Origin: a virus
Virus record (IMG/VR): IMGVR_UViG_3300032180_000009
Span: 1 to 50,554 of that record
Length of the DNA: 50,554 nucleotides
Direction: 5' to 3' (one strand)
Every line of letters begins with the position of its first letter. Position 1 is the first letter of the stretch. Below are positions 6,535 through 45,067 of the stretch, in pieces. A model generated the notes under the pieces. That model had not been told where the DNA came from and did not search any database. It was given only the letters and a program-made list of their open reading frames with translations. A program made the translations under genes and the position numbers.

Positions 6535-7041
6535 ATGCTCGACTACGATCGCCTAGTTGAACTGTTTGAGCTTTACGACAATGGCTGGTTCATAAACCGA
6601 GTTAGTCGCGGTCGTGCTAAAGAAGGCGAGCGTGCTGGTCAATTAGATATTCACGGCTATCGCCGTATCGTAATCGACTACGTTAAATACTACGAACACC
6701 ATCTCGTTTGGTTCTGGGTTCATGGTGAGTGGCCAGACGAGATTGATCATATCGATGGCGATCGAGCTAACAACGCACCCGATAACTTGCGTTGTTGTAC
6801 TCGCACTGAAAACTGTTTTAATGCCAAGAGAGAAACTGGTCAGTCCGGCCTCAAAGGGGCGTACCTGGATAAACGGAACCTTCAATGGTATTCCAAAATC
6901 CAGATCGGTGGTCAGGTGAAGTTCTTGGGAAACCACGGCTCTGCTGAAGAAGCACATGCGGCTTTCATGGCAGCAGTCGAACTTCATCATGGAGAGTTCG
7001 CTTTCCATAATAGACCACACCCTCAACAGGAGACTGAATAA
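6535..7041 (+). CDS. HNH homing-type endonuclease with AP2-like tail
   Basis: The HNH motif is clear: HHLVWFWVHGEWP, then DEIDHIDGDRANNAPDNLR (about residues 60-90), typical of the HNH_3 class. The tail (GLKGAYLDKRNLQWYSKIQIGGQVKFLGNHGSAEEAHAAFMAA, split at will) resembles an AP2-like DNA-binding domain. Free-standing genes of this kind cut DNA and spread between phages. It interrupts the normal scaffold-capsid order and looks lower in G+C than its neighbours, in line with late arrival. Its stop overlaps the capsid start by one base. Confidence 0.88.
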   Translation: MLDYDRLVELFELYDNGWFINRVSRGRAKEGERAGQLDIHGYRRIVIDYVKYYEHHLVWFWVHGEWPDEIDHIDGDRANNAPDNLRCCTRTENCFNAKRETGQSGLKGAYLDKRNLQWYSKIQIGGQVKFLGNHGSAEEAHAAFMAAVELHHGEFAFHNRPHPQQETE

Positions 7042-8096: not shown

Positions 8097-8636
8097 GTGA
8101 TTCTTGACAACCTACTCTCCTTCGGTGTTACCCAAAACCTGGCCCAGGTAACCGGCACCTACACTTCACTCAACTCCCTCGATCTCCACGTCGCTGCCAC
8201 CGGTCTCCCTGTCCTCGCTAACCTTCAGGGCGCTCGCGACCTTGGCATCGGCGATGACCCGGCCCTCAAGCTCTTGGTCCAAGTCACCACCACCTTCACC
8301 TCCGGTGGCGCTGGCACCCTCCAAGTCAAATTCCAGGGTGCTACTGACAACGGCTCTGGCGCCGCCAACGCCTTCTCGGACTGGTGGGTCTCCCCTGCCT
8401 ATGCCCTTGCGACCCTTGTCCAAGGCGCTCGCCTCATGGACATGGATATGCCTCGCCCGCCGGCAGGCATCGCCGTGCCTAGGTTCCTCCAACTCTCGTA
8501 TGTGATCGGTGGCGCCACCATGACCGCGGGACAGGTCTCGGCCTTCCTCGTCCTTGATCGCCACGACCAGATGTACCTGAGCACTGTAAACTCCACCCTC
8601 GGCGGCTATCCCGCCGGCATCACCGTCGCGAACTGA
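8097..8636 (+). CDS. Bbp16-like capsid cement protein
   Basis: A 179-residue protein with the pattern of the Bbp16 family: an N-terminal LLSFG segment, ARDLGIGDDPALKLLVQVT, a beta-rich GAGTLQVKFQGATD stretch, and PRFLQLSYVIGG...AGQVSAFLVLDRHDQ. This family decorates or stabilises capsids beside the major capsid gene. It uses a GTG start with a strong AGGAGG site. Confidence 0.75.
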   Translation: MILDNLLSFGVTQNLAQVTGTYTSLNSLDLHVAATGLPVLANLQGARDLGIGDDPALKLLVQVTTTFTSGGAGTLQVKFQGATDNGSGAANAFSDWWVSPAYALATLVQGARLMDMDMPRPPAGIAVPRFLQLSYVIGGATMTAGQVSAFLVLDRHDQMYLSTVNSTLGGYPAGITVAN

Positions 8637-8646
8637 GGAGCCCCAA

Positions 8647-9288
8647 ATGAAGCGCCTCCTTCTCGCAACTGCACTTGGTTTGGGGCTTTTAGCCCCAGCC
8701 TCGGCTCAGGTCAACTTCACACCGCAAGCCGGCATCACCTCGGGCTACCTGCCGAAAACTACCTACTCCTCAGCCTTCTTCGGCTTCGTGCCCTTTACCA
8801 GCGCCACTGATGAAGTCTGTATCTCTGGCTCTGCGACCAAAGTCGTTCGTGTCGACCGCATCGTCATCGGTGGCACTGCCAGTACGCTCATCAACGTCCC
8901 GGTCACCGTCCTTCGTCGAGCGTCCCTCGACACAGGCGGCACCGCGGCTACAACCACTGCCAACCCTGGTATCACCACTCAAATCGCTTCACGCGACACG
9001 GGCCAGGCTCCTAACACTGCCGCCACTGCGGTCCTAGTCTCCTACACCGCTGCCCCAACTATAGTCGACACCGCGCCGGTTTATATAGATTCCGGCACTA
9101 TGGCCCTACCCGCCACTGGCACCACCAATGGCTTCGGCAACTTGGAGTTCATTTGGTCACGTGATATCGAGAACAACGTTCAAGTCCCAACCCTTCGTGG
9201 TGCTGCCCAGCAAATCTGCCTTAACTTCAACGGAACCACCCCAGGCACTGCTTTGTTGAATGGTTCCATCACTTGGACGGAGGAATGA
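8647..9288 (+). CDS. Secreted-type phage protein with Sec signal peptide
   Basis: A 213-residue protein starting MKRLLLATALGLGLLAPASA, a standard Sec signal peptide with a predicted cut before QVNF. The mature part is Thr/Ala-rich, beta-type, with two Cys (DEVCISG near the start and QQICLNF near the end) that could form a disulphide. It is the first of five signal-peptide genes in the tail-fibre region. It has a good ribosome binding site (GGAG). Function unknown; it could be a tail or envelope-located protein. Confidence 0.75.
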   Translation: MKRLLLATALGLGLLAPASAQVNFTPQAGITSGYLPKTTYSSAFFGFVPFTSATDEVCISGSATKVVRVDRIVIGGTASTLINVPVTVLRRASLDTGGTAATTTANPGITTQIASRDTGQAPNTAATAVLVSYTAAPTIVDTAPVYIDSGTMALPATGTTNGFGNLEFIWSRDIENNVQVPTLRGAAQQICLNFNGTTPGTALLNGSITWTEE

Positions 9289-9289
9289 T

Positions 9290-9595
9290 ATGAGTATTTC
9301 ATTCTGGCCAACGCTACAGACAGTTACTAATGGATTGGTGGGGTCTCCTACATCAATAGCTAAAGATTCCCAATGGACTATTGTGACTTGCACATCTACA
9401 GATGCAAGTCACGTATATGCATCATTGCCTTCAGGTGGTTCTATTGGTGATGTCGTAGAAGTTCATGATTCAGGCAGTGGATGGGCTACTCAAGTAGTTC
9501 CCCCATCAGGTGAGTCATTATATGGTGGTGTTGCGGTCGCAGCGCCGAGACTATTTCGTAAGATAGACTCATCCACATGGTCATATCTAACATAA
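9290..9595 (+). CDS. Small hypothetical protein
   Basis: A 101-residue protein rich in Ser/Val/Thr with a beta pattern (GDVVEVHDSGSGWATQVVPPSGESLYGG), resembling small tail-tip or fibre-associated domains. It starts one base after the previous stop behind a GGAGGA site. It is visibly more A+T-rich than its neighbours, suggesting separate acquisition. It has no signal peptide. Confidence 0.65.
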   Translation: MSISFWPTLQTVTNGLVGSPTSIAKDSQWTIVTCTSTDASHVYASLPSGGSIGDVVEVHDSGSGWATQVVPPSGESLYGGVAVAAPRLFRKIDSSTWSYLT

Positions 9596-9605
9596 AGGAG
9601 CTATC

Positions 9606-10049
9606 ATGCGTAAATATCTACTCCCTTCAGTTCTTATCCTTCTTCTTGGTCTGAGCTATACTCTAGCTCAGACCATCACTAGAGCCCTTCAACTCAGTCA
9701 AGATACCACTGGTGCATTCAGTGTTGACACTAACAACGGTGTCTACTTTCCCGGCCACATTCTCTCTACCGGCACCAACCGCCCCGCACCAACCGTAGCT
9801 GGCACTGGTTCAACTCCCACCATTGCCTCTACTTCAACTGACAATGCCGGCACAATCACTGCCGGCACCTTATCCACCGTTATCAACCTGACCTTTGGCC
9901 AACCTTGGGTATCTACACCTAACTGTGTCGTTACTGCTCAATCTGGCGGCACTCCGGTAACTTACACTCCGGTCACTACCTCACTTGCCATCACCCAAGG
10001 CGCCACTACTGGCAATAAACTTGGCTATATCTGTCTGAGCCCAAGCTAA
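9606..10049 (+). CDS. Signal-peptide protein with tail-fibre-like domain
   Basis: A 147-residue protein starting MRKYLLPSVLILLLGLSYTLAQ, a Sec signal peptide. The mature part has a Pro/Thr/Ser-rich linker (STGTNRPAPTVAGTGSTP) and a C-terminal beta-domain with two Cys (PNCVVTA and YICLSPS). Linkers and domains like this occur in phage fibre proteins. It overlaps the next ORF by one base. Confidence 0.7.
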   Translation: MRKYLLPSVLILLLGLSYTLAQTITRALQLSQDTTGAFSVDTNNGVYFPGHILSTGTNRPAPTVAGTGSTPTIASTSTDNAGTITAGTLSTVINLTFGQPWVSTPNCVVTAQSGGTPVTYTPVTTSLAITQGATTGNKLGYICLSPS

Positions 10050-11110
10050 TGTTTATTCTCGGCCTATTGCTTCCAATCTGCTACATTCCAGGTTACACTG
10101 GGGCGTCAATCCCGACGCAATGGGCTGTGCTATCCCTTGCCTTACCTTTCCTTCTCCACTGTGCATCCATCTCCCGAGTGTGGTTGGGCTTCATCGCCTT
10201 CGCCATCCTTGGCACCTTGTGGGCCCCACAGGTCTACGACTCAATCTTCGGTATCTGGGTTGTGGTCTTGTGGGGCCTATCTTTTCAGCTAGGGCAGTCG
10301 AGTGAAGACCCAACGTCACTCTACAAGGGCCTTGCCTATGGGCTCTCTGTATCCTCCTTCATTGCCATCTTCCAATGGTTTGGCTACACCCCACTCCCCG
10401 TTGCCTATGGCAACAACGTCGCTGGCTTACTCTACAACCGAACCGTACTCAGCGCCGCATCGGCACTCCTCATCCTCTGCCTAATCGAACACCGCCTATG
10501 GCTCTACATCCCATCCCTACTCCCCGGCCTAATCCTTTCCGGCTCCCGGGGAGGCTGGGTCGTTCTCATCTGCGGAATCGCAGTCCGCATCCATTGGTCC
10601 TTAGTCATCGCCCAACTCGCCCTCGTCGCCCTGATCTTCGGCACCTCCGCATCCAGTTCCGACACCGAGCGATCTCTAATCTGGGCCTCAGCCATCCACG
10701 GCCTCAACTGGCTTGGTTGGTCCGCAAACTCCTTCATCGGCATCTATGTCCTCACCACCCATTCCCTAATCCATCCGGAGTTCGCCCACAATGACTACCT
10801 CCAACTCGGATTCGAATTCGGCAGCGCCTCACTCTTCCTATTTTCCATCCCAATCCTATCCTTGGTATGGCGCCCGACACTGGCCGTATTCGGTTTCATC
10901 ATACTCGCCACATTCTATTTCCCTCTCTATACCCCACTCACGGCTTTCATTTGCTGCTTTGCTCTCGGCCATTCTCTACGTGGCTTTAGCCCTTCTGGCC
11001 TTCTCATCCGTCACTGCCGACCTGATCTCCTACCGTGGGCTCACGACCCAAGACCCGAGTATGACCCAGCTTGGCGCTCAACTCTTCCCGTTCAGCCGCG
11101 AACTTCGTAA
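10049..11110 (+). CDS. O-antigen ligase/polymerase-like membrane protein
   Basis: A 353-residue protein with roughly ten hydrophobic segments across its length. Signature pieces of the WaaL/Wzy_C family are present: an SGSRGGW motif about residues 165-171, and a large periplasmic-type loop containing HNDYLQLGFEFG, where the conserved His lies. The family joins or polymerises O-antigen or related glycans at the periplasmic face of the inner membrane. Its place between signal-peptide and fibre genes suggests it changes the host surface during infection, perhaps blocking re-adsorption. The last ~35 residues are not family-like and overlap another reading frame. Confidence 0.75.
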   Translation: MFILGLLLPICYIPGYTGASIPTQWAVLSLALPFLLHCASISRVWLGFIAFAILGTLWAPQVYDSIFGIWVVVLWGLSFQLGQSSEDPTSLYKGLAYGLSVSSFIAIFQWFGYTPLPVAYGNNVAGLLYNRTVLSAASALLILCLIEHRLWLYIPSLLPGLILSGSRGGWVVLICGIAVRIHWSLVIAQLALVALIFGTSASSSDTERSLIWASAIHGLNWLGWSANSFIGIYVLTTHSLIHPEFAHNDYLQLGFEFGSASLFLFSIPILSLVWRPTLAVFGFIILATFYFPLYTPLTAFICCFALGHSLRGFSPSGLLIRHCRPDLLPWAHDPRPEYDPAWRSTLPVQPRTS

Positions 11111-11126
11111 CCGGAGGCTTAAATGA
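10980..11126 (+). CDS. Overlapping small membrane protein candidate
   Basis: In the +1 frame relative to the O-antigen-type gene lies a peptide of 48 residues (GTG 10980) or 55 (TTG 10959): a hydrophobic segment VALALLAFSSVTADLISYRG followed by a polar tail ending LFPFSRELRNRRLK. Its stop overlaps the next ATG. The tail resembles segments found after Wzy-type proteins, whereas the ligase frame loses family likeness here. It may be a partner gene or the sign of a frameshift. Confidence 0.4.
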   Translation: MALALLAFSSVTADLISYRGLTTQDPSMTQLGAQLFPFSRELRNRRLK

Positions 11127-12385
11127 AACGCTTTCTCCTTAGCGCCTTTGCCTTCTGGTTCGGGTTGGCGCCATTGCTAGCTCAGCAGTTCCCTATCCAA
11201 GGTGGTGCTAACGTTGTCCCTCAGGCCGGGTCCTTCTCCAACGGCACCCAAGGCGTTCCCATCGGCGCTGTTCCCACCACCAACGGCGGCTGGGTTCAAA
11301 ACTGGCCGGATCAAACCAAGCAACTCTTCGTGGATGATTTCTCCACTGGTACCCTCAATACCATCAACCGTTGGCAAACCCCCACCGCCGGCACTGGCGG
11401 TACCGCTGCGTCCAACGCCGTAGGCCAAACCACCCTTGCCGGTGGCACTACCGCCAATGGCTTCTCTGCCCTCTCCACTCAGTTGATCTTCTTCGACAAG
11501 AACCCGGGCTATGTGTTCTTTCAAGCCAACATCAACCTGTCCAATCCTGCCACCACCAACACGGTTGAGTACATCGGCTTTGGCACCATTCCAACCACCC
11601 CCACCGCCGCTGCCTACTGCACCAACTGCGTCGGCTTTGAAGATGGCATCGATGGTAAACTCCGTGCCGTAACTTGGGCCTCTGGCGGCAAAACCATAAT
11701 CGCTGACCTCTCCGTTGCTCAAGGCATAACCCCAACCTCAACCGCTGCCCTATCCGGCGCTGTCGGCTCTTTCACCGGTGGCTGCAACTGTACCCCACAG
11801 CACACAGACACTGGGTCATACAAATACGTCATCTACTTCCGTGGTGACAACATCCTGTGGTATATGGAAAACCAAGTCAACGGCCAGTTGCTGTTGGTTG
11901 CCTTCACCACCCGCGGTGCCCTTGGCCCTGACGTAAACCAACTCCCCGCCAGCTTCGTCGTGGTCAACAACACCGTCGGCCCAGCCACCGGTTCCACGAT
12001 GCAGATCAACCAAGTCACCGTGGGGGACTCCTCTGGCAATCCCATAACCGCAGTCTCCACCATCGCTGGCTCGACAGCCTCGTCCTCTGTGCTCAAAGCC
12101 GCAGCCGGCCATCTAATCGGTGCCTATGCCAATTGCACTGCTGCGTGTTGGTTGATGATCTTCAACTCCGCCACTGCCCCCTCTAATGGCGCAACCACTG
12201 CCGGCACCGGCTCTGGCGGCCTCCAAGACTGTGTCCCCATTGCCGCTGGTGGCATTGGCTCCATCAACTACACCCCGCAACCGTTTGAGTTCTTCTCCAC
12301 TGGTATCACCGCAGCCATCTCCTCCACTGCTTGTGGCACCCTCACCCTGTCCACGGTTGGCTTCATTCATGGAACAGTACAATGA
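11123..12385 (+). CDS. Large signal-peptide protein, lectin-like fold candidate
   Basis: A 420-residue protein with a Sec signal peptide (MKRFLLSAFAFWFGLAPLLA). The mature region has DDFSTGTLNTINRWQTP, a Gly/Thr-rich stretch, then alternating beta segments (GYVFFQANINL; YKYVIYFRGDNILWYMEN) that resemble a concanavalin-type jelly roll. The last ~110 residues form a second domain (AAAGHLIGAYANCTAACWLM). Several Cys occur in close pairs (YCTNC, GCNC, NCTAAC), typical of proteins folded outside the cytoplasm. Likely binds or processes surface glycans. Coupled to the next gene by ATGA. Confidence 0.7.
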   Translation: MKRFLLSAFAFWFGLAPLLAQQFPIQGGANVVPQAGSFSNGTQGVPIGAVPTTNGGWVQNWPDQTKQLFVDDFSTGTLNTINRWQTPTAGTGGTAASNAVGQTTLAGGTTANGFSALSTQLIFFDKNPGYVFFQANINLSNPATTNTVEYIGFGTIPTTPTAAAYCTNCVGFEDGIDGKLRAVTWASGGKTIIADLSVAQGITPTSTAALSGAVGSFTGGCNCTPQHTDTGSYKYVIYFRGDNILWYMENQVNGQLLLVAFTTRGALGPDVNQLPASFVVVNNTVGPATGSTMQINQVTVGDSSGNPITAVSTIAGSTASSSVLKAAAGHLIGAYANCTAACWLMIFNSATAPSNGATTAGTGSGGLQDCVPIAAGGIGSINYTPQPFEFFSTGITAAISSTACGTLTLSTVGFIHGTVQ

Positions 12386-12642
12386 TCGATCGCATCCTAA
12401 TCTCCATTCTGAGTTTTGCCTTTGGCTTTGCCATTGTACATGCTCAGACCGTCACCGCTTCAGGCATCACATCTCTTCCACGATCAGCTATTGGTAGCCT
12501 CCCAACCTGCAATGCTGCAGCCGAAGGCACTCTGTTCGGCGTTACCGATGCCTTAATCCCTGCCGCTCTCGCCACAGTAGCCGCCGGCGGTGCCGTTCAC
12601 GTCTCTGTCTACTGCAATGGAACCAACTGGATTGTACTTTGA
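12382..12642 (+). CDS. Small signal-peptide protein with fibre-tip-like domain
   Basis: An 86-residue protein with a Sec signal peptide (MIDRILISILSFAFGFAIVHAQ) and a mature domain LPTCNAAAEGTLFGVTDA...VYCNGTNW. This small domain with two Cys is a recurrent C-terminal module of phage fibre proteins. The start overlaps the stop of the previous gene, suggesting that the two products work together. Confidence 0.7.
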   Translation: MIDRILISILSFAFGFAIVHAQTVTASGITSLPRSAIGSLPTCNAAAEGTLFGVTDALIPAALATVAAGGAVHVSVYCNGTNWIVL

Positions 12643-12654
12643 AAGGACCACCAA

Positions 12655-13206
12655 ATGTCTAATGTTGAAGCCCCCCGCTGGCGCCTAACCGAGGCCCATC
12701 ATCTCGCAATCGAAGTCCTTCCGGACGGCACCAAGGTCGAGTGGGAACACAAAGAAACCTCCCGCGAATCCGGCCGCGCTGTGCGAAAGCTCTTCGCTGT
12801 GCCGATGTTTCTTGAACCCAAAGACGCCGCTGATCACAACTACCCCGGCGAGATCATCGTCGCCCACGAGGTCGACGGTGCCCACAACATGGCCAAGGAC
12901 TACATCTTCACCGGTCCGCCGACCCCAGGAATGGAGCCGCTGAACGAAGCTGCTGGGCTTCTGTCCGAAGAATGGAAACACAAGTGGAACAACCCCGTTG
13001 AATCCCTTCCGGCCAACGGTGGAATGAACGCAGCCGAATCCGCTTTCCTTGCCAAGATGATGGAAGCCTTCGAACGCATTGCACCGCCGCGGGCAGAGCC
13101 CAAGGCCGATCCCAGTGAGGTTGCCGATCTGAAGGAACGCCTTGCCCGGCTTGAGGCCCTCATTGCCGCCCAAAACAAAATCCCAGCCGAGGGACGTCGG
13201 GTCTGA
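12655..13206 (+). CDS. Hypothetical virion-region protein
   Basis: A 183-residue soluble protein with no signal peptide. The N-terminal half contains HHLAIEVLPDGTKVEWEHKE and PGEIIVAHEVDGAHNMAKDY; the C-terminal 45 residues (PSEVADLKERLARLEALIAAQ) form a probable coiled coil. It sits between fibre genes and starts behind an AAAGGA site. No family recognised. Confidence 0.65.
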   Translation: MSNVEAPRWRLTEAHHLAIEVLPDGTKVEWEHKETSRESGRAVRKLFAVPMFLEPKDAADHNYPGEIIVAHEVDGAHNMAKDYIFTGPPTPGMEPLNEAAGLLSEEWKHKWNNPVESLPANGGMNAAESAFLAKMMEAFERIAPPRAEPKADPSEVADLKERLARLEALIAAQNKIPAEGRRV

Positions 13207-13646
13207 TGGCCTCGCAACTCGACCTCGATCAAGGCGGAACCAATCGTCAAACCCACCGAGTGTACCTCGGGCCATCGGTGGGCTGGCAAGAGGTCTCGTG
13301 GGAGTGGGTGCTCAACATCACTGTTGGTGGCACCACTACCATGTTGCTCGGTTCCAACCTCGTCTTGGTCAACTTCAATGGCGCCGTCTCGATCCAACTC
13401 CCTTCCTTCAAAGCCACCTCAGCCGGTGCTCAAGCAATCCCCCGGCAGTTCCTGATTCTTCCTGTGACCATTTCCGACGTTGGTGGGTTTGCCACCGCCA
13501 ATCCCATCACCATCCTTCCGTTCGGCACCGAGCTAATCTCTGGCCTCTTTAACAACACAACCACACTACTTCAACTCTCGTCGAACTACGGCTCCATTGT
13601 AATTCGACCCGACACAGTCAATGGCGGAGGCACGCTACTCCAATGA
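13206..13646 (+). CDS. Hypothetical beta-rich tail-region protein
   Basis: A 146-residue protein, beta-rich, without signal peptide; DLDQGGTNRQTHRVYLGPSVGW and a long TTTMLLGSNLVLVNFNGAVSIQLP stretch. It overlaps both neighbours (ATG 13206 within the stop of the previous gene; ATGA with the tailspike gene), so it belongs to the fibre operon and may be a tailspike adaptor or chaperone. Confidence 0.6.
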   Translation: MASQLDLDQGGTNRQTHRVYLGPSVGWQEVSWEWVLNITVGGTTTMLLGSNLVLVNFNGAVSIQLPSFKATSAGAQAIPRQFLILPVTISDVGGFATANPITILPFGTELISGLFNNTTTLLQLSSNYGSIVIRPDTVNGGGTLLQ

Positions 13647-15412
13647 AACGCATTCTCCTTGCCCTTTGGCTTTTGCTTCTTCCCTCAGTTGCGCAAGCGC
13701 AATGTAACGGCGTCTTCGCTGCCCACACCGTTTGCGGCAATAACACCGCCAACCCCGGCATCCCAGGTCAAGTTCCTCAGGCCTCAATTATCGGCCCCGG
13801 TGGCACTAACGGCTCAATACAATACAACAATGGAGGTTTCTTCGGCGGTGTTTCTGGCACGGCCAATCAAATTCCAGTTTTTCCTGGTGGTACGGCAGCT
13901 CCGGTTGCAACTCCAGCATCAACATGGTTCGACAACGCATATTGTAACACTATTGGTTACATAATCGCTCGTACCACAGGTGGGTGGGTTTGTACGAGAG
14001 GTATCCCTGTTAATATAGTTTGGCTTGGAGCTATAGCTGATGGTAGCACCGCGTACAGTTCAACTAATGCAACAACTAATGCAACTGCATTAACCACGGC
14101 ATTAGCCACTGGCAGTTGCGCCTTTATTCCATATAACGTTAATGGCTATAGCTTTGCCGGTTCAATCACCATTAATAGTGGCAATTGTATTCAAGGTGAA
14201 AATCAGGTCTTAGTCAAATCACAAGCTACGACTCAGTTTTTAGATATTGTATCATTCAATTATCCATTTACACACATAGAAAATATTCATATAGATATGA
14301 CTGGCTCAGGAGCATCTTCTACAGCTTTTCTTATTGATACTACAGCGGCTAATGTGTATGCAATTAAATTCGATAAAATATATGCAACAAACTGCGTGCA
14401 TGTTATTACTGATGTCGGAACTTTTGGTGCAGTGGATGTTTCTATAACTAATTTCCGCTCGGCTCTTACTCGAGGTACACAAATATATTTTAAAAAATCA
14501 CTTGGACTTATGTACTTTCAACAAGTACAAATAGACAACACTTCTAATGTGGGGGCCGTAACTTGGAACGGTATTCAATTTGATCTAGTTGCCGGTATAG
14601 AATTAAATGCTGTAGATGTCATTGGACCAACAACTGGTTCTTATCAGTCTGGTGTATACGGTATTCAAATAAATGGTGGCACTGGCTCTGCCGCGGTTTG
14701 GATGGAGCGCGTAAATGTTGATACAACTACAGGAAATGGTATTGGAATCAGTCTTACTAATTTTCTTTGGTTGTCGCATTTAGATATTAATGCAAATTTG
14801 GGAAATGCAGTTGTTCTTACTGCAACAAATACAGTCGAAATCTCGGATAGTTTTATAGGCGGAGGTTTTGGGCGTACTGGTGCAGCTGCTGGCGCAGCAG
14901 GTTTATCGATTACATCTAGTAATGATGTTCATGTTGTAAATTTAACAACAACTAATAACGTTGGTTCTGGAGTTATTATTAATGGAACATCCAATAGAGT
15001 AAACTTGGGCAATGTTAGTTCAACATTAAATGGATTTCCTTATGCATTGCAAAATACAGCTTCAAACGTTATTTTCTTGAATGGTGCCTTTGCTAGTAAT
15101 TCTTCTGGAGTTTCTAATACTTCATCCGGAACAGGTAACATCATAAAAGATATATCAGGTTACAATCCGATAGGAGCCACTGCGGCACAGAATGTTGGAG
15201 CTTCACCGGCTACGGTATGTGCAGGAACATCACCGGAAACACATTACTTAATTCAATCCGCCACTAACACTGCTACAGTTACACAAGGCGGTGTTCAAAT
15301 TTTAGCATTAAGTAACGCTAACAATTTCTACACGGTACAACTTAATTCGAATGAATGCTATATAGTCACATGGCTTACTACACAGCCTACTTACACTAAA
15401 TTCGTGCACTGA
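13643..15412 (+). CDS. Beta-helix tailspike with Sec signal peptide
   Basis: A 589-residue protein. Residues 1-20 are a clear Sec signal peptide (MKRILLALWLLLLPSVAQA). Next comes a Cys-containing module (CNGVFAAHTVCGNNTANPG), a Gly/Asn-rich neck, then a long run of short alternating repeats (ITINSGNCIQGENQ; IENIHIDMTG; VEISDSFIGG; SNDVHVVNL) typical of a right-handed beta-helix, and a ~75-residue tip. Such spikes bind and often degrade cell-surface polysaccharide. The DNA turns visibly A+T-rich from about 13850 to the end while the first ~200 bases match the genome, pointing to exchange of the receptor-binding part. Confidence 0.82.
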   Translation: MKRILLALWLLLLPSVAQAQCNGVFAAHTVCGNNTANPGIPGQVPQASIIGPGGTNGSIQYNNGGFFGGVSGTANQIPVFPGGTAAPVATPASTWFDNAYCNTIGYIIARTTGGWVCTRGIPVNIVWLGAIADGSTAYSSTNATTNATALTTALATGSCAFIPYNVNGYSFAGSITINSGNCIQGENQVLVKSQATTQFLDIVSFNYPFTHIENIHIDMTGSGASSTAFLIDTTAANVYAIKFDKIYATNCVHVITDVGTFGAVDVSITNFRSALTRGTQIYFKKSLGLMYFQQVQIDNTSNVGAVTWNGIQFDLVAGIELNAVDVIGPTTGSYQSGVYGIQINGGTGSAAVWMERVNVDTTTGNGIGISLTNFLWLSHLDINANLGNAVVLTATNTVEISDSFIGGGFGRTGAAAGAAGLSITSSNDVHVVNLTTTNNVGSGVIINGTSNRVNLGNVSSTLNGFPYALQNTASNVIFLNGAFASNSSGVSNTSSGTGNIIKDISGYNPIGATAAQNVGASPATVCAGTSPETHYLIQSATNTATVTQGGVQILALSNANNFYTVQLNSNECYIVTWLTTQPTYTKFVH

Positions 15413-15420
15413 GGATTCTA

Positions 15421-15828
15421 ATGCCCGACGAACCCGAATACAAACTCGACGACTCTCTTACCGAGCGGGACCTCCTATTTCGCATCGCTCGTGAACTAAC
15501 CACCATGCGCCAGATGCTCACCAAAGTCGTTAACTACATGGTCGACGCCGAAAGCGAAGTCCCTGAGAAGATGCGCCGGTTCATTATGTACATGCACGAT
15601 ATGCATGATGTCAAAAACCTCTACGATGAACATGGGATCACGGTTCCAGCCTATGTGATGCGTGAGGTCGAACGCTGCGACGACCGCTTACGCCAGCTTC
15701 TTCAAGACCTTCACTCCGATGGCAACGCCTTCGAGAAGGTCCGACGGGAGATGGCCGCAGACACCGAGAACAAATGGGACCACACTGCGCTACTATCCTA
15801 CCTCAAACCAAAGGACATAACCAAATGA
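15421..15828 (+). CDS. Hypothetical charged helical protein
   Basis: A 135-residue, strongly charged and helical protein (LTERDLLFRIARELTTMRQMLTKVVNYM; YVMREVERCDDRLRQLLQDLH). It starts behind GAGGA. It follows the tailspike and overlaps the next small gene by four bases. No family assigned; possibly an assembly chaperone. Confidence 0.65.
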   Translation: MPDEPEYKLDDSLTERDLLFRIARELTTMRQMLTKVVNYMVDAESEVPEKMRRFIMYMHDMHDVKNLYDEHGITVPAYVMREVERCDDRLRQLLQDLHSDGNAFEKVRREMAADTENKWDHTALLSYLKPKDITK

Positions 15829-16031
15829 AGAAACAAGGACGTGCGGATAGGGATGTCCGTGAATCCACACCGCCCTCGACGGTGTCGAAGTCTGTGAGTC
15901 CGGCGGGCGCCACCGCTCCTGGCACCATCACCTACAGCAAATCCGCGCCGATGTATGATAACAAACCGGCGTTTCAATCTCCACCGGCCAAGGCCAGGGA
16001 GTTCAACAAAGGTTCGCAAGGGAAACACTGA
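15825..16031 (+). CDS. Small disordered hypothetical protein
   Basis: A 68-residue, Lys/Ser/Pro-rich, probably disordered protein. The ATG at 15825 overlaps the preceding stop. Related small basic proteins occur among tail genes of podoviruses, but nothing here shows a role. Confidence 0.6.
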   Translation: MKKQGRADRDVRESTPPSTVSKSVSPAGATAPGTITYSKSAPMYDNKPAFQSPPAKAREFNKGSQGKH

Positions 16032-16500: not shown

Positions 16501-16730
16501 TGGGTGTCTCCAGGGATGGTGGCAAGCCCAATGTCATCGATGTGAATCGCTATTCCGAACCCGTCGGGCCGAAGCGGAACTACCCCGCAGCGCCCGGGCT
16601 CGGTGCGGACAACTACGGCTGCTGTGGCACTCAAGGCGGCGGGGGCACCAGTGCAGCCACTGGCGGTGGTGTCGGCATAGTTCGCAAGGGCGGTGAGAAC
16701 CGTGACATGGGCACTCAAGGTAAACGCTGA
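16500..16730 (+). CDS. Small Gly-rich hypothetical protein
   Basis: A 76-residue Gly-rich protein with adjacent Cys (NYGCCGTQGGGG) and a basic tail. A GGAGG site at 16489-16493 supports ATG 16500 (GTG 16497 is also possible). The stop overlaps the next gene start by one base. No function recognised. Confidence 0.6.
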   Translation: MGVSRDGGKPNVIDVNRYSEPVGPKRNYPAAPGLGADNYGCCGTQGGGGTSAATGGGVGIVRKGGENRDMGTQGKR

Positions 16731-17824
16731 TGCCTTCCAACACCGACATCTGTAACAGATCGCTCCAAACCTTTGGCACCCGCACTGACGTTACAGATGC
16801 CGAACTCGCAGCCAACTCCACCAATGAGGCAAAGCAATTCAACCTCATTGCGTTCAACCTCCGCGATGACCTCCTGCGCCTAGCCCCATGGGACTGTGGC
16901 CTCCGGGTTGCCAACCTCACCTACATCTCCTCCGTCGTCGGCACCCCGGAGAACCAATCCCCAATCACTGCCCTATGGACTCCAGGGCAACCAGCACCGC
17001 CGTGGCAATACGAATACCAATACCCAGTGGATTGCCTCCGTGCGGTTTCCATCATCCCCGCCAATCAAGTCGGCTTCTCGGGCACCATCCCCATCTCCCC
17101 CGCTGTCACTGGTGGTGCCTCCACTTGGTGGCAGGGTCAACCAGTCAAGTACAAAGTCCAAACGGATCAATTCCGCCCAGTGACTTCGGCCACTGTGGCT
17201 GCCGGTGGCACAGGTCACGCCGTAGGCGACATCATCACCCTTCCTCTTGGCCCGGTAACCTCAGCCCCCGTGGGTGCCCCGGTTCAACTTCAGGTCCTGA
17301 CCGCCCCCGGCGGCATCATAGGCACTGTGGCTGTGGTCAATGTCATCATCGGCACACCCATTGCGGCTCCACTCGGCGGATCATACTTCGGTGTGCAAAC
17401 CAACCCCATTGCCCAAGCCTCCACCACAGGTGTTGGCATCAACGCCACCTTCAACCTAGTCCAAGGTCCTGCGGATGACCAGCGTGTCATCCTAACCAAT
17501 CAAGAATTCGCCACGTTGATGTATGTAAAGCAAGTCACTAACCCCAATGTGATGGACACCTTGTTCCAAACCGCTTGGATCAAGCTCACTGGCGCGGCTA
17601 TGCAAATGGCCCTGCGCGGGGACAAGGGTGTCTCCAATATGTTGATTGAGGAGGTCAACAAAGCCATTCAATCCGCGCGGTCCATCGATGGCAATGAAGG
17701 CCTCACCATTAATGACGTGACCCCAGATTGGATCCGCATGCGAGGCATTGCGTGGTCCGACGGTTATATGTCTGGTCCATTCGCAGGCTTCGATTGGGGC
17801 GGCCTGTGGCCCTCCTATCAGTAA
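16730..17824 (+). CDS. Tail tubular protein A (T7 gp11-like adaptor)
   Basis: A 364-residue protein. The N-terminal part (DICNRSLQTFGTRTDVTDAEL; LRDDLLRLAPWDCGLR; YEYQYPVDCLRAVSI) and the C-terminal part (NQEFATLMYVKQVTNPN; LFQTAWIKLTGAAMQMAL) match the gatekeeper/adaptor proteins that join portal and nozzle. Residues ~150-246 are an extra Gly/Ala/Thr/Val-rich beta-domain inserted between the two halves; a similar repeated domain occurs in the next protein. Longer than the usual ~200 residues because of this insert. Confidence 0.85.
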   Translation: MPSNTDICNRSLQTFGTRTDVTDAELAANSTNEAKQFNLIAFNLRDDLLRLAPWDCGLRVANLTYISSVVGTPENQSPITALWTPGQPAPPWQYEYQYPVDCLRAVSIIPANQVGFSGTIPISPAVTGGASTWWQGQPVKYKVQTDQFRPVTSATVAAGGTGHAVGDIITLPLGPVTSAPVGAPVQLQVLTAPGGIIGTVAVVNVIIGTPIAAPLGGSYFGVQTNPIAQASTTGVGINATFNLVQGPADDQRVILTNQEFATLMYVKQVTNPNVMDTLFQTAWIKLTGAAMQMALRGDKGVSNMLIEEVNKAIQSARSIDGNEGLTINDVTPDWIRMRGIAWSDGYMSGPFAGFDWGGLWPSYQ

Positions 17825-32020: not shown

Positions 32021-33239
32021 ACCACCTCTGCCCGAACTTGTCGATGCCTTTAGCAGTGATCTGCCCCGACGCCACCATAACCTCAATAACCCGGAGGATG
32101 GAGTGCATCGGGATTCGGGTTCTGGCAAAGTTCACGATCTGATGTTCCGGCAGCCCCTGGCCCTTGTCTAAGGCGTGGATGAAGTGGACGATTTCGTCGA
32201 CGGCTCGGGCATCGGTGCCATTCGATCCCGAGGTGAAAATATCCGGCATAGTGGACTCTGCTTCGAGTAGCCAACCCATAGCCCGATTGAAATCCTCCTT
32301 CGTGAGGAGAAGTACGTCACCTCGGTCCGCAGCAGCCACCATCGCAAGCTTATACAAGTGTACGCGCCTTCGCGTTTTATAGTGTAGAAGCTTTGGGTGG
32401 CTGACACTAGGGGGCTCACCCAACGCCCGCCAATTGTTAACCGCATCACGAAAGTCCGCGGTGACCTTGAACTCCCCACAGAGCGCTCCTATCATTTTAA
32501 TGTCATGAACCAAATCATCATTGGGTCGGACTTCCTTCTCCGCGAAGTCATCCCCGATTATGCGTTCGTCCGAATTGATAAGCATAATCCTTGAGGTAAA
32601 CCCTTGGTCCCATGCGAACTCCGGCATCATAGAAAGTAGATTAGATGGGGTTGTAGCGGAGATGAGATTCACCTGCCCGCGGGAGATCTTGACCTTGTTC
32701 TCCGGCCGCCCGCGGCGTTCTTCTTCGTATGGGTCGGGGTCGTAGAAGTGTGACAGAAGGCTGACCATCTGCGCGGTATATTCATGCATGAACGCACCAA
32801 GCTCTTCAGCAGTGATCACGGTGTTGTAGTACTCAAGGGGTGGGTCTGGGAGCCTAGGGATGAAGCGCTTGGACGCAGCGATCTTATCTACAAGGCTAGC
32901 GCCGGTCACTGAGGTTGGAGCAAAGTGGAACTCAGGTAACTCTGCCATGAACTTCTTTGCTGCTCGGATGATGCGGGTCTTGCCTACCCCTGGGTGTCCG
33001 ATGATGAACACATACATGTTGGGATAGAGCAACGACCCGGCTGACACCATTCCACACTTCATCTCCATGGCAGCGGCTATGGTGAAGATGGCCGCCCACT
33101 TCCGAAACAGCGCCGGGCTCTCCAGATTATCGGTATGCTCGGCGAACGACTCTATCCAAGATGGACACTTCCTCTTGCCGGGTCCTCGAGTCGTGGCCAG
33201 TGTAGTCTCTGAGCCCTTCGGGGTTCGTTGATGCATCAT
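32001..33239 (-). CDS. P-loop ATPase, probable replicative helicase
   Basis: A 412-residue protein. SPALFRKWAAIFTIAAAMEMK then Walker A GHPGVGKT (residues 81-88) match the DUF3987-like helicase/ATPase group of phages. VITAEELGAFMH lies at the Walker B region, and DQGFTSRIMLI and a C-terminal winged-helix-like part (LPEHQIVNFARTRIPMHSILRVIE) follow. I chose ATG 33239 because AAAGG lies six bases upstream; an earlier start at 33296 lacks one. The gene overlaps the 3' end of the polymerase gene by 113 bases. It is the last of the minus-strand operon. Confidence 0.75.
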   Translation of the reverse strand: MMHQRTPKGSETTLATTRGPGKRKCPSWIESFAEHTDNLESPALFRKWAAIFTIAAAMEMKCGMVSAGSLLYPNMYVFIIGHPGVGKTRIIRAAKKFMAELPEFHFAPTSVTGASLVDKIAASKRFIPRLPDPPLEYYNTVITAEELGAFMHEYTAQMVSLLSHFYDPDPYEEERRGRPENKVKISRGQVNLISATTPSNLLSMMPEFAWDQGFTSRIMLINSDERIIGDDFAEKEVRPNDDLVHDIKMIGALCGEFKVTADFRDAVNNWRALGEPPSVSHPKLLHYKTRRRVHLYKLAMVAAADRGDVLLLTKEDFNRAMGWLLEAESTMPDIFTSGSNGTDARAVDEIVHFIHALDKGQGLPEHQIVNFARTRIPMHSILRVIEVMVASGQITAKGIDKFGQRWFKAVRP

Positions 33240-34632
33240 ATTCGCCTTTGTTCCAGCCCACCTTGCAGTCATAGGGAATGGCCAACTCCCGGCCATGCTT
33301 CAGTGGTATCCGCACCACTAAGTCGTTCATGATTCTGGGGATGATTTCGTCTTCAAGGTTTTCTGGGTACTGGAATGTGAGGGCGTCGTGTTCGTGCATC
33401 ATCAGGGTGGTGTAGTTCTGGCGCCAGATATGGAGCATGGCGCGGTTTACGATGTCGGCTAGGGAGCCTTGTGGATCATAGGCAATGGCTTCACGGAGGA
33501 CATCAGGATCGTTGCGCCTTCCCATGAACCATCGTTTGCGCCCAGTGATAGTAACAAGGTAGCCAATTCGTCGGAGAGTGGAATCAACACTCTGCTGCCA
33601 TTGCTGATGTGCAGGAAAAGCTTTGAAGTATTTTGGTTGGAAGGCGATGACGACATCGATGGGGAGTCGGCTTTGCTTAGCGAGGGTGTTGGGTTGACCT
33701 CCATAGTTCGAGCCATGTCCGAGCTTTTTGCACATGAAACGGTAAGAGTAATGTCGATAGTATGGCTGTTCTGCGATATGCTTATCCTGTTTGAGTATTC
33801 CTGTCCAAGGTAATTCTGGCCAGCAAATTCGCGCAACAGCTGTGTGAGGGTCTCCAGATTCGCAAGCTTCGAGGTATCTTGGGTCATTGAACAGGTTCCA
33901 TTCTATTGCGCCAACCACAAATGATTCACCCGACTTCGCGTCGCACTTCGCAAACTTCATCCCCCGATCGGCGATGAATATGCTTCTAAGACTTTCCTCC
34001 ACATTCTGAAGATTGCCGCCTGTTCCAAAAGCGCTGAAGCTAGAACTAAAGCGACCAGTTGAAGTTCCGGCGATGTTGTATGACGTTCGGATTCGGCCAT
34101 CGGGGTCTACCTCTGTTTTGAGCTTTTTGATCTTCTCAGCAAGGTCAGCGATTGCGTTCATATGAGTAATGATTGGCTTCGCAATCGTATACTGTTCCAT
34201 CTTCTCCCGGGCGGCGCGGTCGGTTGTGGGGCGGCCTTTGTTCTTGATGGGTGGAATGCCCAAGCGGTCGTAAAAGAGGGCCATCCGGTCCGGCGGACTG
34301 CGCCAGTTGAACCCTGGCATGCCCACGCCCTCGAGAACGATACGGCTTAGGTTTCGTTCGAGGTGGTCGATTTTGTCGTAGAAGTCGTCGATGACTTCAC
34401 CAAGTCTTCCACGATCCACACGTACTCCCCGCAATGACATTTCGAGCGCTGGAGCCTGGAGTTCTCGGCTAAAGTCATATGTTGCACTGGTATAGCTATC
34501 CAGTTGGGGCAGCATTCCATCTAGGGCCATCCTTGTTGCTAGGACATCGGTTCCGTTGTAAACCATGTCCAAAGACCATTGATCGGGTAGATCTTCGGGC
34601 ATGGTAATGGCGGTGTTGATTATGTAGGCCAT
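33127..34632 (-). CDS. Family A DNA polymerase, polymerase domain with Exo III
   Basis: A 501-residue polymerase lacking most of its proofreading domain. It opens with YNGTD (25-29), which matches the Exo III YxxxD motif, then the thumb, TSTGRFSSS (190-198), NLQN, motif A with D231 (KCDAKSGESF, not the usual DYSQIE), motif B with K302/K303 and Y310 (CKKLGHGSNYGG), and motif C HEHDALTF with D416. The rest of the exonuclease lies on the ORF at 34802-35914. The ATG overlaps the stop of a 57-residue ORF. The two pieces probably associate. Confidence 0.9.
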   Translation of the reverse strand: MAYIINTAITMPEDLPDQWSLDMVYNGTDVLATRMALDGMLPQLDSYTSATYDFSRELQAPALEMSLRGVRVDRGRLGEVIDDFYDKIDHLERNLSRIVLEGVGMPGFNWRSPPDRMALFYDRLGIPPIKNKGRPTTDRAAREKMEQYTIAKPIITHMNAIADLAEKIKKLKTEVDPDGRIRTSYNIAGTSTGRFSSSFSAFGTGGNLQNVEESLRSIFIADRGMKFAKCDAKSGESFVVGAIEWNLFNDPRYLEACESGDPHTAVARICWPELPWTGILKQDKHIAEQPYYRHYSYRFMCKKLGHGSNYGGQPNTLAKQSRLPIDVVIAFQPKYFKAFPAHQQWQQSVDSTLRRIGYLVTITGRKRWFMGRRNDPDVLREAIAYDPQGSLADIVNRAMLHIWRQNYTTLMMHEHDALTFQYPENLEDEIIPRIMNDLVVRIPLKHGRELAIPYDCKVGWNKGEYDASTNPEGLRDYTGHDSRTRQEEVSILDRVVRRAYR

Positions 34633-34805
34633 CAGGCAACTGGGAAGTCTGCAAGGCCACTAGCCAATTCGGCCATGCGCATACAAGTCTTTACCAACAC
34701 ATGTTGTTTGCTAGGTTTGATTCCGCCATCAGTTATGGCCGAGACTATGATTGCGGCATGATACGCAATCAAGGCTTGAACTTCTGCTGCGTCTTCAAGT
34801 TTCAC
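34632..34805 (-). CDS. Small ORF inserted in the split polymerase
   Basis: A 57-residue ORF (GTG 34805) whose start overlaps the stop of the glycosylase-exonuclease ORF (GTGA) and whose stop overlaps the polymerase ATG (TGATG). It encodes a helical peptide (MKLEDAAEVQALIAYHAAII; TCMRMAELASGLADF). I recognise no family. Its precise placement between the two polymerase halves suggests coupled translation and perhaps a bridging role, or it may simply be what filled the break. Confidence 0.6.
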   Translation of the reverse strand: MKLEDAAEVQALIAYHAAIIVSAITDGGIKPSKQHVLVKTCMRMAELASGLADFPVA

Positions 34806-35914
34806 TTATCTCTCCCAATGGTTTCGAGCTTCCGGTTCGACTTCCACGGCCCAAAGTCAGTGTAGATGGAGCCGAGGTACCCTAGGCCCTTGAGGGATTC
34901 GGGTTGTAGTGCATGGCTGAGGAGCATGGTATCATGTTGAGCGTTCACAACTCTGATTCCGTATCCTTTCCAAAGTCTGGCAATGTCGAAGAGTCCATTC
35001 TGGAACAGTTTTGCAATCCTTGAGTCAGCAAGAACGTTTGCAATAATGTACCAAGCTTGGAGTTCATCTTCTCGAGTAAGCCAATAGTTTCCATCCGGTC
35101 TTCGTTCGTCATCGAAAGGAATAACGATTGCCCGTATTGCATCAACTGCGAACCCGATGCAGGTAATTCTCGTTCCAGCTGTCTCAATGTCAACTGAAAG
35201 GAGGTTGCAGCAAGCTTCGTATATGTAGCGTCGGATAAAGACACGGATATCCTCCAAAGTTGGTTCAATCCAAATCTCACACGCCGGTCGGCGAACATCT
35301 GGAAAGGCGTTCTCCCGACCGGCCTTTGCGAGATCAATACACGTAGTCGGCCTCAACTCCCACTGCCTCAACACCGCCGCTGGGTGATAGGTCGGCATGA
35401 GTTTGAAGCCAGATACAAGATGCGTTGTGAGTGTGGTGGTGCCACGGAGTTTCGATACGCCCGTGCGGCCGCATAGAGCCCAAAGAGCAGTATTGCCCAG
35501 AGCAACAATGAGATTAGGATCGCAGGCAAGAATTTCATCCCCAAGTCGGTCCAACTCCGATTGATACCCGGCTTGGACATATTTGCTTGGCAGGAGCGGA
35601 GGATATCCTGGGATTCGGTTTTCTTTAGGGCCACAGAACCACTCCAATCGATTAGCGGGGGGATGGATGTTGAAGACATTGGTGCGGTAGAACTCGTCAC
35701 GATGTAGTGCCCATATCGACGCCACCGAATTCGGGTCGCCGCGGGAGTAGAAGTCGGAGATGTACTGTCGGTCGATGGAGGTAAGGGTGAGTTGTCCAGC
35801 ATCTTGGAGCATCCTTAAGAGTTCGAGGCCGGAGTGGCCACAGAATGGGGTTGAGATGCGAGCTTCGTTCTCGCCCCAGGCTTCACCGATGAGCATGAGG
35901 GGCTTCAAAAACAC
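34802..35914 (-). CDS. Uracil-DNA glycosylase fused to split polymerase exonuclease half
   Basis: A 370-residue fusion. The N-terminal half is a family-4/5-like uracil-DNA glycosylase: LMLIGEAWGENE (7-17), CGHSGLELLRML, LIVALGNTALWAL and TYHPAAVLRQ (175-184). The C-terminal half is a DEDD exonuclease: SVDIET (D242, E244) as Exo I and QNGLFDIARL (N306, D310) as Exo II, then NAQHDTMLLSHAL. Exo III is missing here and sits on the next polymerase ORF. Elsewhere, glycosylase, exonuclease and polymerase can occur in one chain, so this gene appears split. GTG start; overlaps the upstream gene. Confidence 0.85.
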   Translation of the reverse strand: MFLKPLMLIGEAWGENEARISTPFCGHSGLELLRMLQDAGQLTLTSIDRQYISDFYSRGDPNSVASIWALHRDEFYRTNVFNIHPPANRLEWFCGPKENRIPGYPPLLPSKYVQAGYQSELDRLGDEILACDPNLIVALGNTALWALCGRTGVSKLRGTTTLTTHLVSGFKLMPTYHPAAVLRQWELRPTTCIDLAKAGRENAFPDVRRPACEIWIEPTLEDIRVFIRRYIYEACCNLLSVDIETAGTRITCIGFAVDAIRAIVIPFDDERRPDGNYWLTREDELQAWYIIANVLADSRIAKLFQNGLFDIARLWKGYGIRVVNAQHDTMLLSHALQPESLKGLGYLGSIYTDFGPWKSNRKLETIGRDK

Positions 35915-44366: not shown

Positions 44367-44708
44367 CTACTTAATCCCCAGCTTCTCAAGCACCTTCTTG
44401 GCATTTTCCCGCTGGGCCTCAGTGGTTTCGGCCTTGAGCTTTTCATGCCAGCGGTCGAGTTTCACTTGGGGTTGGCGTGGGGGGTGAGTGTAGTTCGCAG
44501 GTGCAGAAGGCGTTGGGCGAGGGACTTCGGCTTGGCGTTTCATGAGGACGGCAAGGGCCATTGAGAGGCCACCTTCTGACTTTGGGTAGCGAGCCACATA
44601 TGGCGTGCCCCCTGCGGTCATTGGCAGTTCAACGTATATATTGCCTTCATCAGCCCACATTGTCACTGCCCAAGGTGGCCGAAAGCTATCTGTCCTCTGC
44701 CCCATCAT
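44367..44708 (-). CDS. Hypothetical protein downstream of the tRNA
   Basis: A 113-residue protein with WAVTMWADEGNIYVELPMTA and RYPKSEGGLSMALAVLMKRQ, a Pro-rich linker and a charged helical tail (DRWHEKLKAETTEAQRENAK). GGAG six bases upstream favours ATG 44708; ATG 44720 is also open. It begins about 35 bases after the tRNA 3' end. Confidence 0.65.
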   Translation of the reverse strand: MMGQRTDSFRPPWAVTMWADEGNIYVELPMTAGGTPYVARYPKSEGGLSMALAVLMKRQAEVPRPTPSAPANYTHPPRQPQVKLDRWHEKLKAETTEAQRENAKKVLEKLGIK

Positions 44709-45067
44709 ATGCGTCTCCATGAATGGCCTTCGGTCGCAGGTGTGGTGCCCCCAACAGGAATTGAACCTGCAACCTGATCATTACAAATGACCTGCTCTAC
44801 CAATTGAGCTACAGGGGCGGAAGGATTGCCGTCGGCATCTACGCAGGTGTGGCGTTCGAAGTCCCAAAAGAACTCGGTGTCGACCAAGGGCAATAGGTCC
44901 CTTAGCATCTGTCTGTGGCGACAGGTTGAGCGAGTGCCGGCGGGACACTCGCAGGTCCAGTGACCACTATCACCAACCATGATGTAGGATGATTCCACAT
45001 CCAAGTCCTTGGTGAACTTGGTAATGCGGTAGTCATCGAGGGCGGTGCGGAGGTTGTAGAGGGTCAT
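44705..45067 (-). CDS. SWIM zinc-finger protein with tRNA inside its 3' end
   Basis: A 120-residue ORF. Residues 36-55 form a SWIM finger (HWTCECPAGTRSTCRHRQML: CxC...CxH). The last ~40 residues (from SAPVAQLVEQ) are simply the translation of the tRNA gene on the same strand, so the true protein either ends in tRNA-encoded residues or was truncated by the tRNA's arrival. SWIM fingers bind DNA or proteins; the role here is unknown. Confidence 0.65.
   Translation of the reverse strand: MTLYNLRTALDDYRITKFTKDLDVESSYIMVGDSGHWTCECPAGTRSTCRHRQMLRDLLPLVDTEFFWDFERHTCVDADGNPSAPVAQLVEQVICNDQVAGSIPVGGTTPATEGHSWRRI
44743..44818 (-). tRNA. tRNA-Thr (anticodon UGU)
   Basis: Read on the minus strand, GCCCCTG pairs with TGGGGGC (acceptor, with G-U pairs), followed by discriminator A and an encoded CCA. 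D-arm AGCTCAATTGGTAGAGC; anticodon stem GGTCA/TGATC with loop TTTGTAA, giving anticodon TGT (reads ACA); T-arm GCAGGTTCAATTCCTGT. The cloverleaf is complete. It reads a codon that is rare in the G+C-rich genes but fits A+T-rich ones such as the tailspike. Confidence 0.95.

Follow-up and report, generated by a model that had tools for sequence, protein, structure and literature searches.

The IMG/VR virus record IMGVR_UViG_3300032180_000009, all 50,554 nucleotides of which are called the window here, represents a BPP-1/phiV10-like podophage that carries, between its homologue of Bbp16 and its first tail gene, a cassette in which five proteins begin with predicted Sec signal peptides (leaders) and a further protein resembles O-antigen ligases. 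Judged from sequence, the chances are about even that this cassette encodes receptor-binding proteins (RBPs) that would be exported as Sec precursors, disulphide-bonded, and joined to phage particles at lysis. Well supported are the predicted leaders and their conservation, a disulphide signature, predicted fibre, lectin and spike folds in many members, and the predicted WaaL fold of the ligase. A preliminary description of this DNA had set the leader genes inside the tail region, which proved inexact, as they actually lie after the Bbp16 homologue and before the first tail gene.

Leaders were called with a home-made rule, not SignalP, requiring a basic n-region, at least eight hydrophobic residues, and small residues at positions -3 and -1. 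The preliminary description had assigned Sec leaders to the genes at 8647, 9606, 11123, 12382 and 13643, and all five open reading frames (ORFs) and their leaders are indeed present, on the + strand: s1 (8647..9288, 213 aa; leader 8647-8706, MKRLLLATALGLGLLAPASA^Q, the caret marking the predicted cut), s3 (9606..10049, 147 aa; leader 9606-9668, MRKYLLPSVLILLLGLSYTLA^Q), s5 (11123..12385, 420 aa; leader 11123-11182, MKRFLLSAFAFWFGLAPLLA^Q), the small s6 (12382..12642, 86 aa; leader 12382-12444, MIDRILISILSFAFGFAIVHA^Q, the weakest of the five, with a net charge of 0), and s9 (13643..15412; leader 13643-13699, MKRILLALWLLLLPSVAQA^Q). A good ribosome-binding site accompanies the leader start in three of the five genes, and the genes at 12382 and 13643 each share 4 nucleotides with the end of the gene before. 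The n-region, core and -3/-1 features of signal peptidase I substrates are found in all five leaders, as well as in 175 distinct leaders of relatives. In related loci, fetched by way of the capsid protein, 214 of 575 cassette ORFs satisfied the rule. The corresponding count was zero for 371 core virion genes and 10 for 552 ORFs lying outside the cassette, and shuffled N-termini passed at a rate of 1.4%. At that rate only about 0.2 leaders would be expected by chance among the 14 cassette genes of the window, where five are seen (P about 1e-6). Every complete cassette (25/25) has at least one leader, with up to seven leader-bearing proteins per phage. Alanine occupies -1 in 174 of the 175 distinct leaders and glutamine +1 in 138, frequencies that are partly built in because the rule favours these residues, though hardly to that degree. 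Chance and wrong start codons as the source of the leaders are ruled out by the ORF starts, the shuffles and the conservation among homologues. One false positive of the rule in the window is the terminase ORF (1392-1470, + strand), where an in-frame extension gives a Tat-like leader, MDMNRRQLLTGVGAVALAGGASSTSA; this is probably a start-choice artefact, because relatives start downstream of it.

Related phages keep these leaders, a point that the preliminary description had raised. When homologues were sought with the mature parts only and the N-terminus was read afterwards, the leader was retained in 85/85 homologues (s1 21/21, s3 31/31, s5 13/13, s9 20/20), none having a start codon past the leader. 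Within the lineage no leaderless homologue of s1, s3, s5 or s9 held up, most candidate rows being start-choice artefacts. Since leaders in other genomes often precede bodies that have no relation to those of the window, with the clean n-h-c architecture kept ahead of them, the leader is a property of the gene slot. As far as sequence comparison can tell, the leader observation is thus larger than first stated, reaching across an entire uncultured lineage of soil viruses of bacteria. Three loci without a recognisable homologue of the window capsid protein (L121, L123 and L134) also carry series of leader-bearing genes with a ligase homologue close by, and the trait is therefore not confined to the lineage of the window.

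The mature proteins also differ in their cysteines. Mature s1, s3, s5, s6 and s9 contain 2, 2, 8, 2 and 9 Cys, in line with the earlier statement that most of them have Cys pairs. Among complete mature leader-bearing proteins, 164 have an even number of Cys, 8 an odd number, and 19 none. Counted by family, with one protein per BLAST cluster, the even-to-odd ratio is 22:1 for leader-bearing proteins versus 17:27 for leaderless cassette proteins (Fisher 3e-6), and 28:23 among other leaderless proteins. Cys content is 1.7% in mature leader-bearing proteins versus 0.7% in core proteins, and proteins sharing an IQYNN stalk motif have 2.0% with a leader versus 0.97% where the rule calls them leaderless. 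The simplest cause of the even numbers and the enrichment is disulphide bonding in an oxidising compartment, and a function of the predicted leaders as exporters appears well supported.

What these proteins might do is suggested by domain and fold comparisons. A scan of 88 leader-bearing proteins against PHROG and Pfam gave matches to tail spike, tail fibre, collar (Collar), Peptidase_S74 and pectate-lyase families, and such matches were confirmed for single proteins, L022:3938-5497 and L071:11690-13288 among them. In the window itself, Pfam and PHROG gave no useful match to the cassette besides Bbp16, and none to a fibre family for s1, s5, s6 or s9. For s3, whose Cys pair C107/C143 is invariant in homologues, a structural model (mean predicted local distance difference test 77) has as its best PDB matches the receptor-binding domain of the Pam1 tailspike, the R2 pyocin fibre and H-type lectins, all with weak E-values; against BFVD it matches phage proteins, several of them named tail fibres, down to E 2e-5. 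These modelled likenesses show a notable agreement in kind, pointing to a fibre-tip or lectin fold. A PDB sequence search with the s3 and ligase profiles gave nothing useful. The s5 protein has a conserved C-terminal region of ~120 aa and a variable middle.

The assignment of s9 as a spike or fibre goes by its putative docking peptide (~13700-13849) and IQYNN motif only. Past the cut, homologues of s9 retain ~50 residues (QCNGVF..TVCGN followed by GGTNGQIQYNN) but hardly anything more, the bodies being swapped; the leader and the QCNG are together in 20/20. RBPs are modular, with conserved N-terminal anchor or docking parts (PMC6872550). Over the s9 body the G+C content falls to 0.43 (14001-16000) versus about 0.56 around it, as expected for an exchanged receptor-binding body. 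Of 23 distinct complete cassettes, most have leaders on all their large proteins, borderline leaders having been judged by eye, and true leaderless fibres occur in a few of the 23, for example L018 and L074.

The O-antigen ligase-like protein reported among the leader genes is likewise present, and its fold bears out that description. This predicted membrane glycan transferase of the WaaL/Wzy_C superfamily, LIG (10049..11110, + strand), gives an AlphaFold2 model that matches WaaL 7tpg with Z 17.9 (VIA) over 292 residues at 4.6 A, the next match having Z 9.3. PF04932 (Wzy_C) is matched by six of ten LIG homologues and not by the window copy. Residues R167, R208 and HND247-249 are invariant in the alignment, and R167/R208/H247 may correspond to WaaL R215/R288/H338, a likeness by residue type only. 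The LIG start overlaps the s3 stop by 1 nucleotide, and in BPP-1-like loci LIG lies directly 3' of s3, start and stop usually overlapping. Distant LIG homologues in other phage types often lie 1-3 genes past a small leader-bearing protein, several of which have one Cys pair. At L119:4876-5271, L120:4777-5172 and L125:4119-4511, a few genes ahead of the ligase, lie small proteins predicted to be exported that share the motif NPGRKGVTICN and a single Cys pair. Members of the LIG alignment have only PF04932, the PglL_A and PglL_B motifs not being found in them; PilO likewise lacks these motifs, and PglL and PilO genes often adjoin the gene of their acceptor (PMC3643930). Because of this gene coupling, and because pilin glycosylases of the superfamily lie beside their acceptors, the preferred role is s3 glycosylation, that is, LIG probably transfers a host lipid-linked glycan to the exported s3 lectin; the alternative is that it alters the surface glycan or lipopolysaccharide of the host itself. 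A split between two-Cys and four-Cys s3 proteins with and without the ligase was discounted as a functional link, since the tree needs only 1-2 changes.

Three leaderless + strand genes complete this part of the cassette. The small g2 (9290..9595) has no assigned function, whereas g7 (12655..13206), which lacks Cys, has the widest conservation of any cassette gene (homologues in 53 loci) and is likely a virion or adaptor protein. The beta-rich g8 (13206..13646; homologues in 27 loci) overlaps s9 by 4 nucleotides and is a candidate docking partner for it.

The fuller proposal, which falls somewhat short of an even chance, is a two-compartment assembly in which head and tail tube would be made in the cytoplasm, and RBPs would be exported, disulphide-bonded and possibly glycosylated by the phage WaaL-type enzyme in the periplasm, to be joined at lysis. 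The cassette would encode a spike or depolymerase, a fibre-tip lectin and accessory fibres as Sec-exported precursors that, late in infection, would cross the inner membrane and lose the leader at A-x-A^Q. The mature proteins would fold and form disulphides in the periplasm, the WaaL-fold enzyme would glycosylate the exported s3 lectin, and conserved N-terminal peptides would dock onto cytoplasm-assembled particles once lysis mixes the compartments. Spikes of the P22 type can be attached in vitro to particles that are already complete. Of the preliminary hypothesis that part of the phage is built outside the cytoplasm, the export leaders, the receptor-binding type of the proteins and a periplasm-facing glycan-ligase-type partner stand; we infer leader cleavage, periplasmic folding, docking at lysis and hence outside assembly, presence in the virion, and the glycan acceptor.

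Several observations weigh against this assembly route. We know of no precedent for a way in which a periplasmic fibre reaches a cytoplasmic particle. The nine Cys of s9 are an exception to even parity, and the QCNG peptide is present in two phages of apparently other types, which is odd for a particle-specific dock. LIG and the s3 subtype share only 1-2 origins, their link resting mainly on gene order. Among 50,697 public phage records there were no matches to s1, s3, s5, s9, the s9 N-terminus or two ligase homologues, and so no cultured relative with these proteins. Lastly, leader-bearing enzymes of the GH66 family in prophages mean that export alone need not mean a place in the virion.

This last point bears on the main rival, which is less probable than joining at lysis yet carries substantial weight. 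Under it the proteins would be exported and never enter the virion: free lectins and depolymerases would mask or trim host surface glycans during infection, so that superinfection is prevented or progeny do not adhere to debris, and the WaaL-type enzyme would remodel lipopolysaccharide to the same end. The strong export signature and the several small free-standing lectin-like units per genome suit such factors, and lambda encodes an exported outer-membrane protein, Lom, between tail genes (PMC12309495). Acetobacteraceae prophages, whose capsid protein is 53-55% identical, have spike-like proteins in a slot between two tail genes, and in bee-associated prophages this slot holds leader-bearing GH66 (dextranase) family proteins and a leaderless GH32 protein (L084:13439-15796, L097:13613-15592, L083:13221-14852). 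The leader-bearing GH66 proteins adjoin the spike gene in Bombella prophages, and some exported neighbours of spikes may be free enzymes. The same prophages also speak against the rival, in that a spike N-terminus, WxQxYxPTxxEW, is common to leaderless and leader-bearing proteins: six proteins have it without a leader, and in two it immediately follows one (L097, from Bombella pluederhausensis TMW 2.2543, and L087, from Saccharibacter floricola DSM 15669, whose leader could also be a lipoprotein signal), and leaders have therefore been gained or lost on otherwise similar spikes. Moreover, a large fibre without a leader that could serve as the RBP instead is absent from most complete cassettes, the docking-type N-terminus is conserved where bodies are swapped, and the cassette forms part of the structural gene block and overlaps structural-type genes that lack leaders.

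Two further explanations are improbable. Lysogenic conversion, by which the cassette would be a set of prophage genes unrelated to particle building, draws on the WaaL-type enzyme and on the general knowledge that Uetakevirus relatives are temperate and alter O-antigen, but the subset of window ORFs scanned yielded no recognisable integrase or repressor, the genes overlap or alternate with the conserved leaderless structural-type g7 and g8, and relatives have fibre and spike domains. Slightly more improbable still is that the leaders are borrowed and uncleaved, as the preliminary description had allowed, serving as hydrophobic anchors by which proteins that stay cytoplasmic are held in the particle or to the inner membrane. 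Some virion proteins are generally known to have hydrophobic N-termini; against this alternative stand the strict A-x-A^Q sites, the Cys enrichment and even parity, and the clean n-h-c architecture ahead of unrelated bodies.

The cassette proteins resemble the modular podophage RBPs of the T7, K1F, G7C and KP32 type in their short conserved N-terminus, swapped bodies, beta-helix or lectin-like domains and multiple RBPs per phage. Those RBPs are assembled from the cytoplasm, whereas here the putative docking peptide is preceded by a Sec signal peptide, and Cys is abundant in the proteins, with even parity. Lambda Lom and Bor are also exported proteins encoded among tail genes, but they are outer-membrane proteins and number one or two, whereas the cassette has predicted fibres and spikes, with up to seven exported proteins per phage. 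The virion proteins pIII and pVIII of filamentous phages have Sec leaders, in phages that assemble in the membrane, unlike the tailed phage of the window with its cytoplasmic heads. With PilO/TfpO and PglL, the putative transferase LIG shares its superfamily, its nature as a membrane enzyme and a gene position directly beside a small exported protein; it differs in being phage-borne, in having a fibre-tip lectin as its putative acceptor, and in that no PglL-specific motifs were found in its alignment. No report of Sec leaders on tailed-phage fibres was found in the open-access literature, subscription papers lying outside the search, and the cassette proteins are best described as a variant of known RBPs without precedent in the open-access papers or public phage records searched.

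The window's terminase, portal, protease, capsid protein (about 48-53% identity), Bbp16 homologue, tail and internal virion genes follow the order of BPP-1, phiV10 and BcepC6B, and its portal, protease, capsid, Bbp16 and tail genes are homologous and colinear with those of BPP-1/epsilon15-like podophages. The Bbp16 homologue (8097..8636, + strand; PF21190 at 8e-11, PHROG 427) and a tail protein (phrog_394; 16730..17824, + strand), both leaderless, border the cassette. In cultured relatives this interval holds 1-2 small genes and the fibre, where seen, lies at the module end; the window has instead a leader-gene cassette of 7-8 kb, and no recognisable fibre gene was found at its module end. The nearest host-linked relatives are a 36-kb contig of a Terriglobia metagenome-assembled genome (L082) and the Acetobacteraceae prophages. 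Between the protease and capsid genes lies an HNH_3 endonuclease ORF (6535-7041, + strand), likely a mobile insertion. The opposite strand carries a replication block, and on it a DNA polymerase (33127-35914) is represented by two ORFs, ~170 nucleotides apart, that match different parts of phrog_17, and a tRNA-Thr (TGT; 44743-44818) overlaps an ORF at 44705-45067.

The prevailing view has tailed-phage particles completed inside the cytoplasm, so that only proteins able to fold in a reducing environment could be used. With no homologues in any phage of the public collection that was searched, a widespread leader trait would have been easily overlooked. Should parts indeed be joined outside the cytoplasm, this would add a new mode to tailed-phage assembly, one in which the export and Dsb machinery of the host serves as late morphogenesis factors; export and abundant disulphides would make the fibres more durable in soil, and a phage-borne glycan ligase would gain a testable function.

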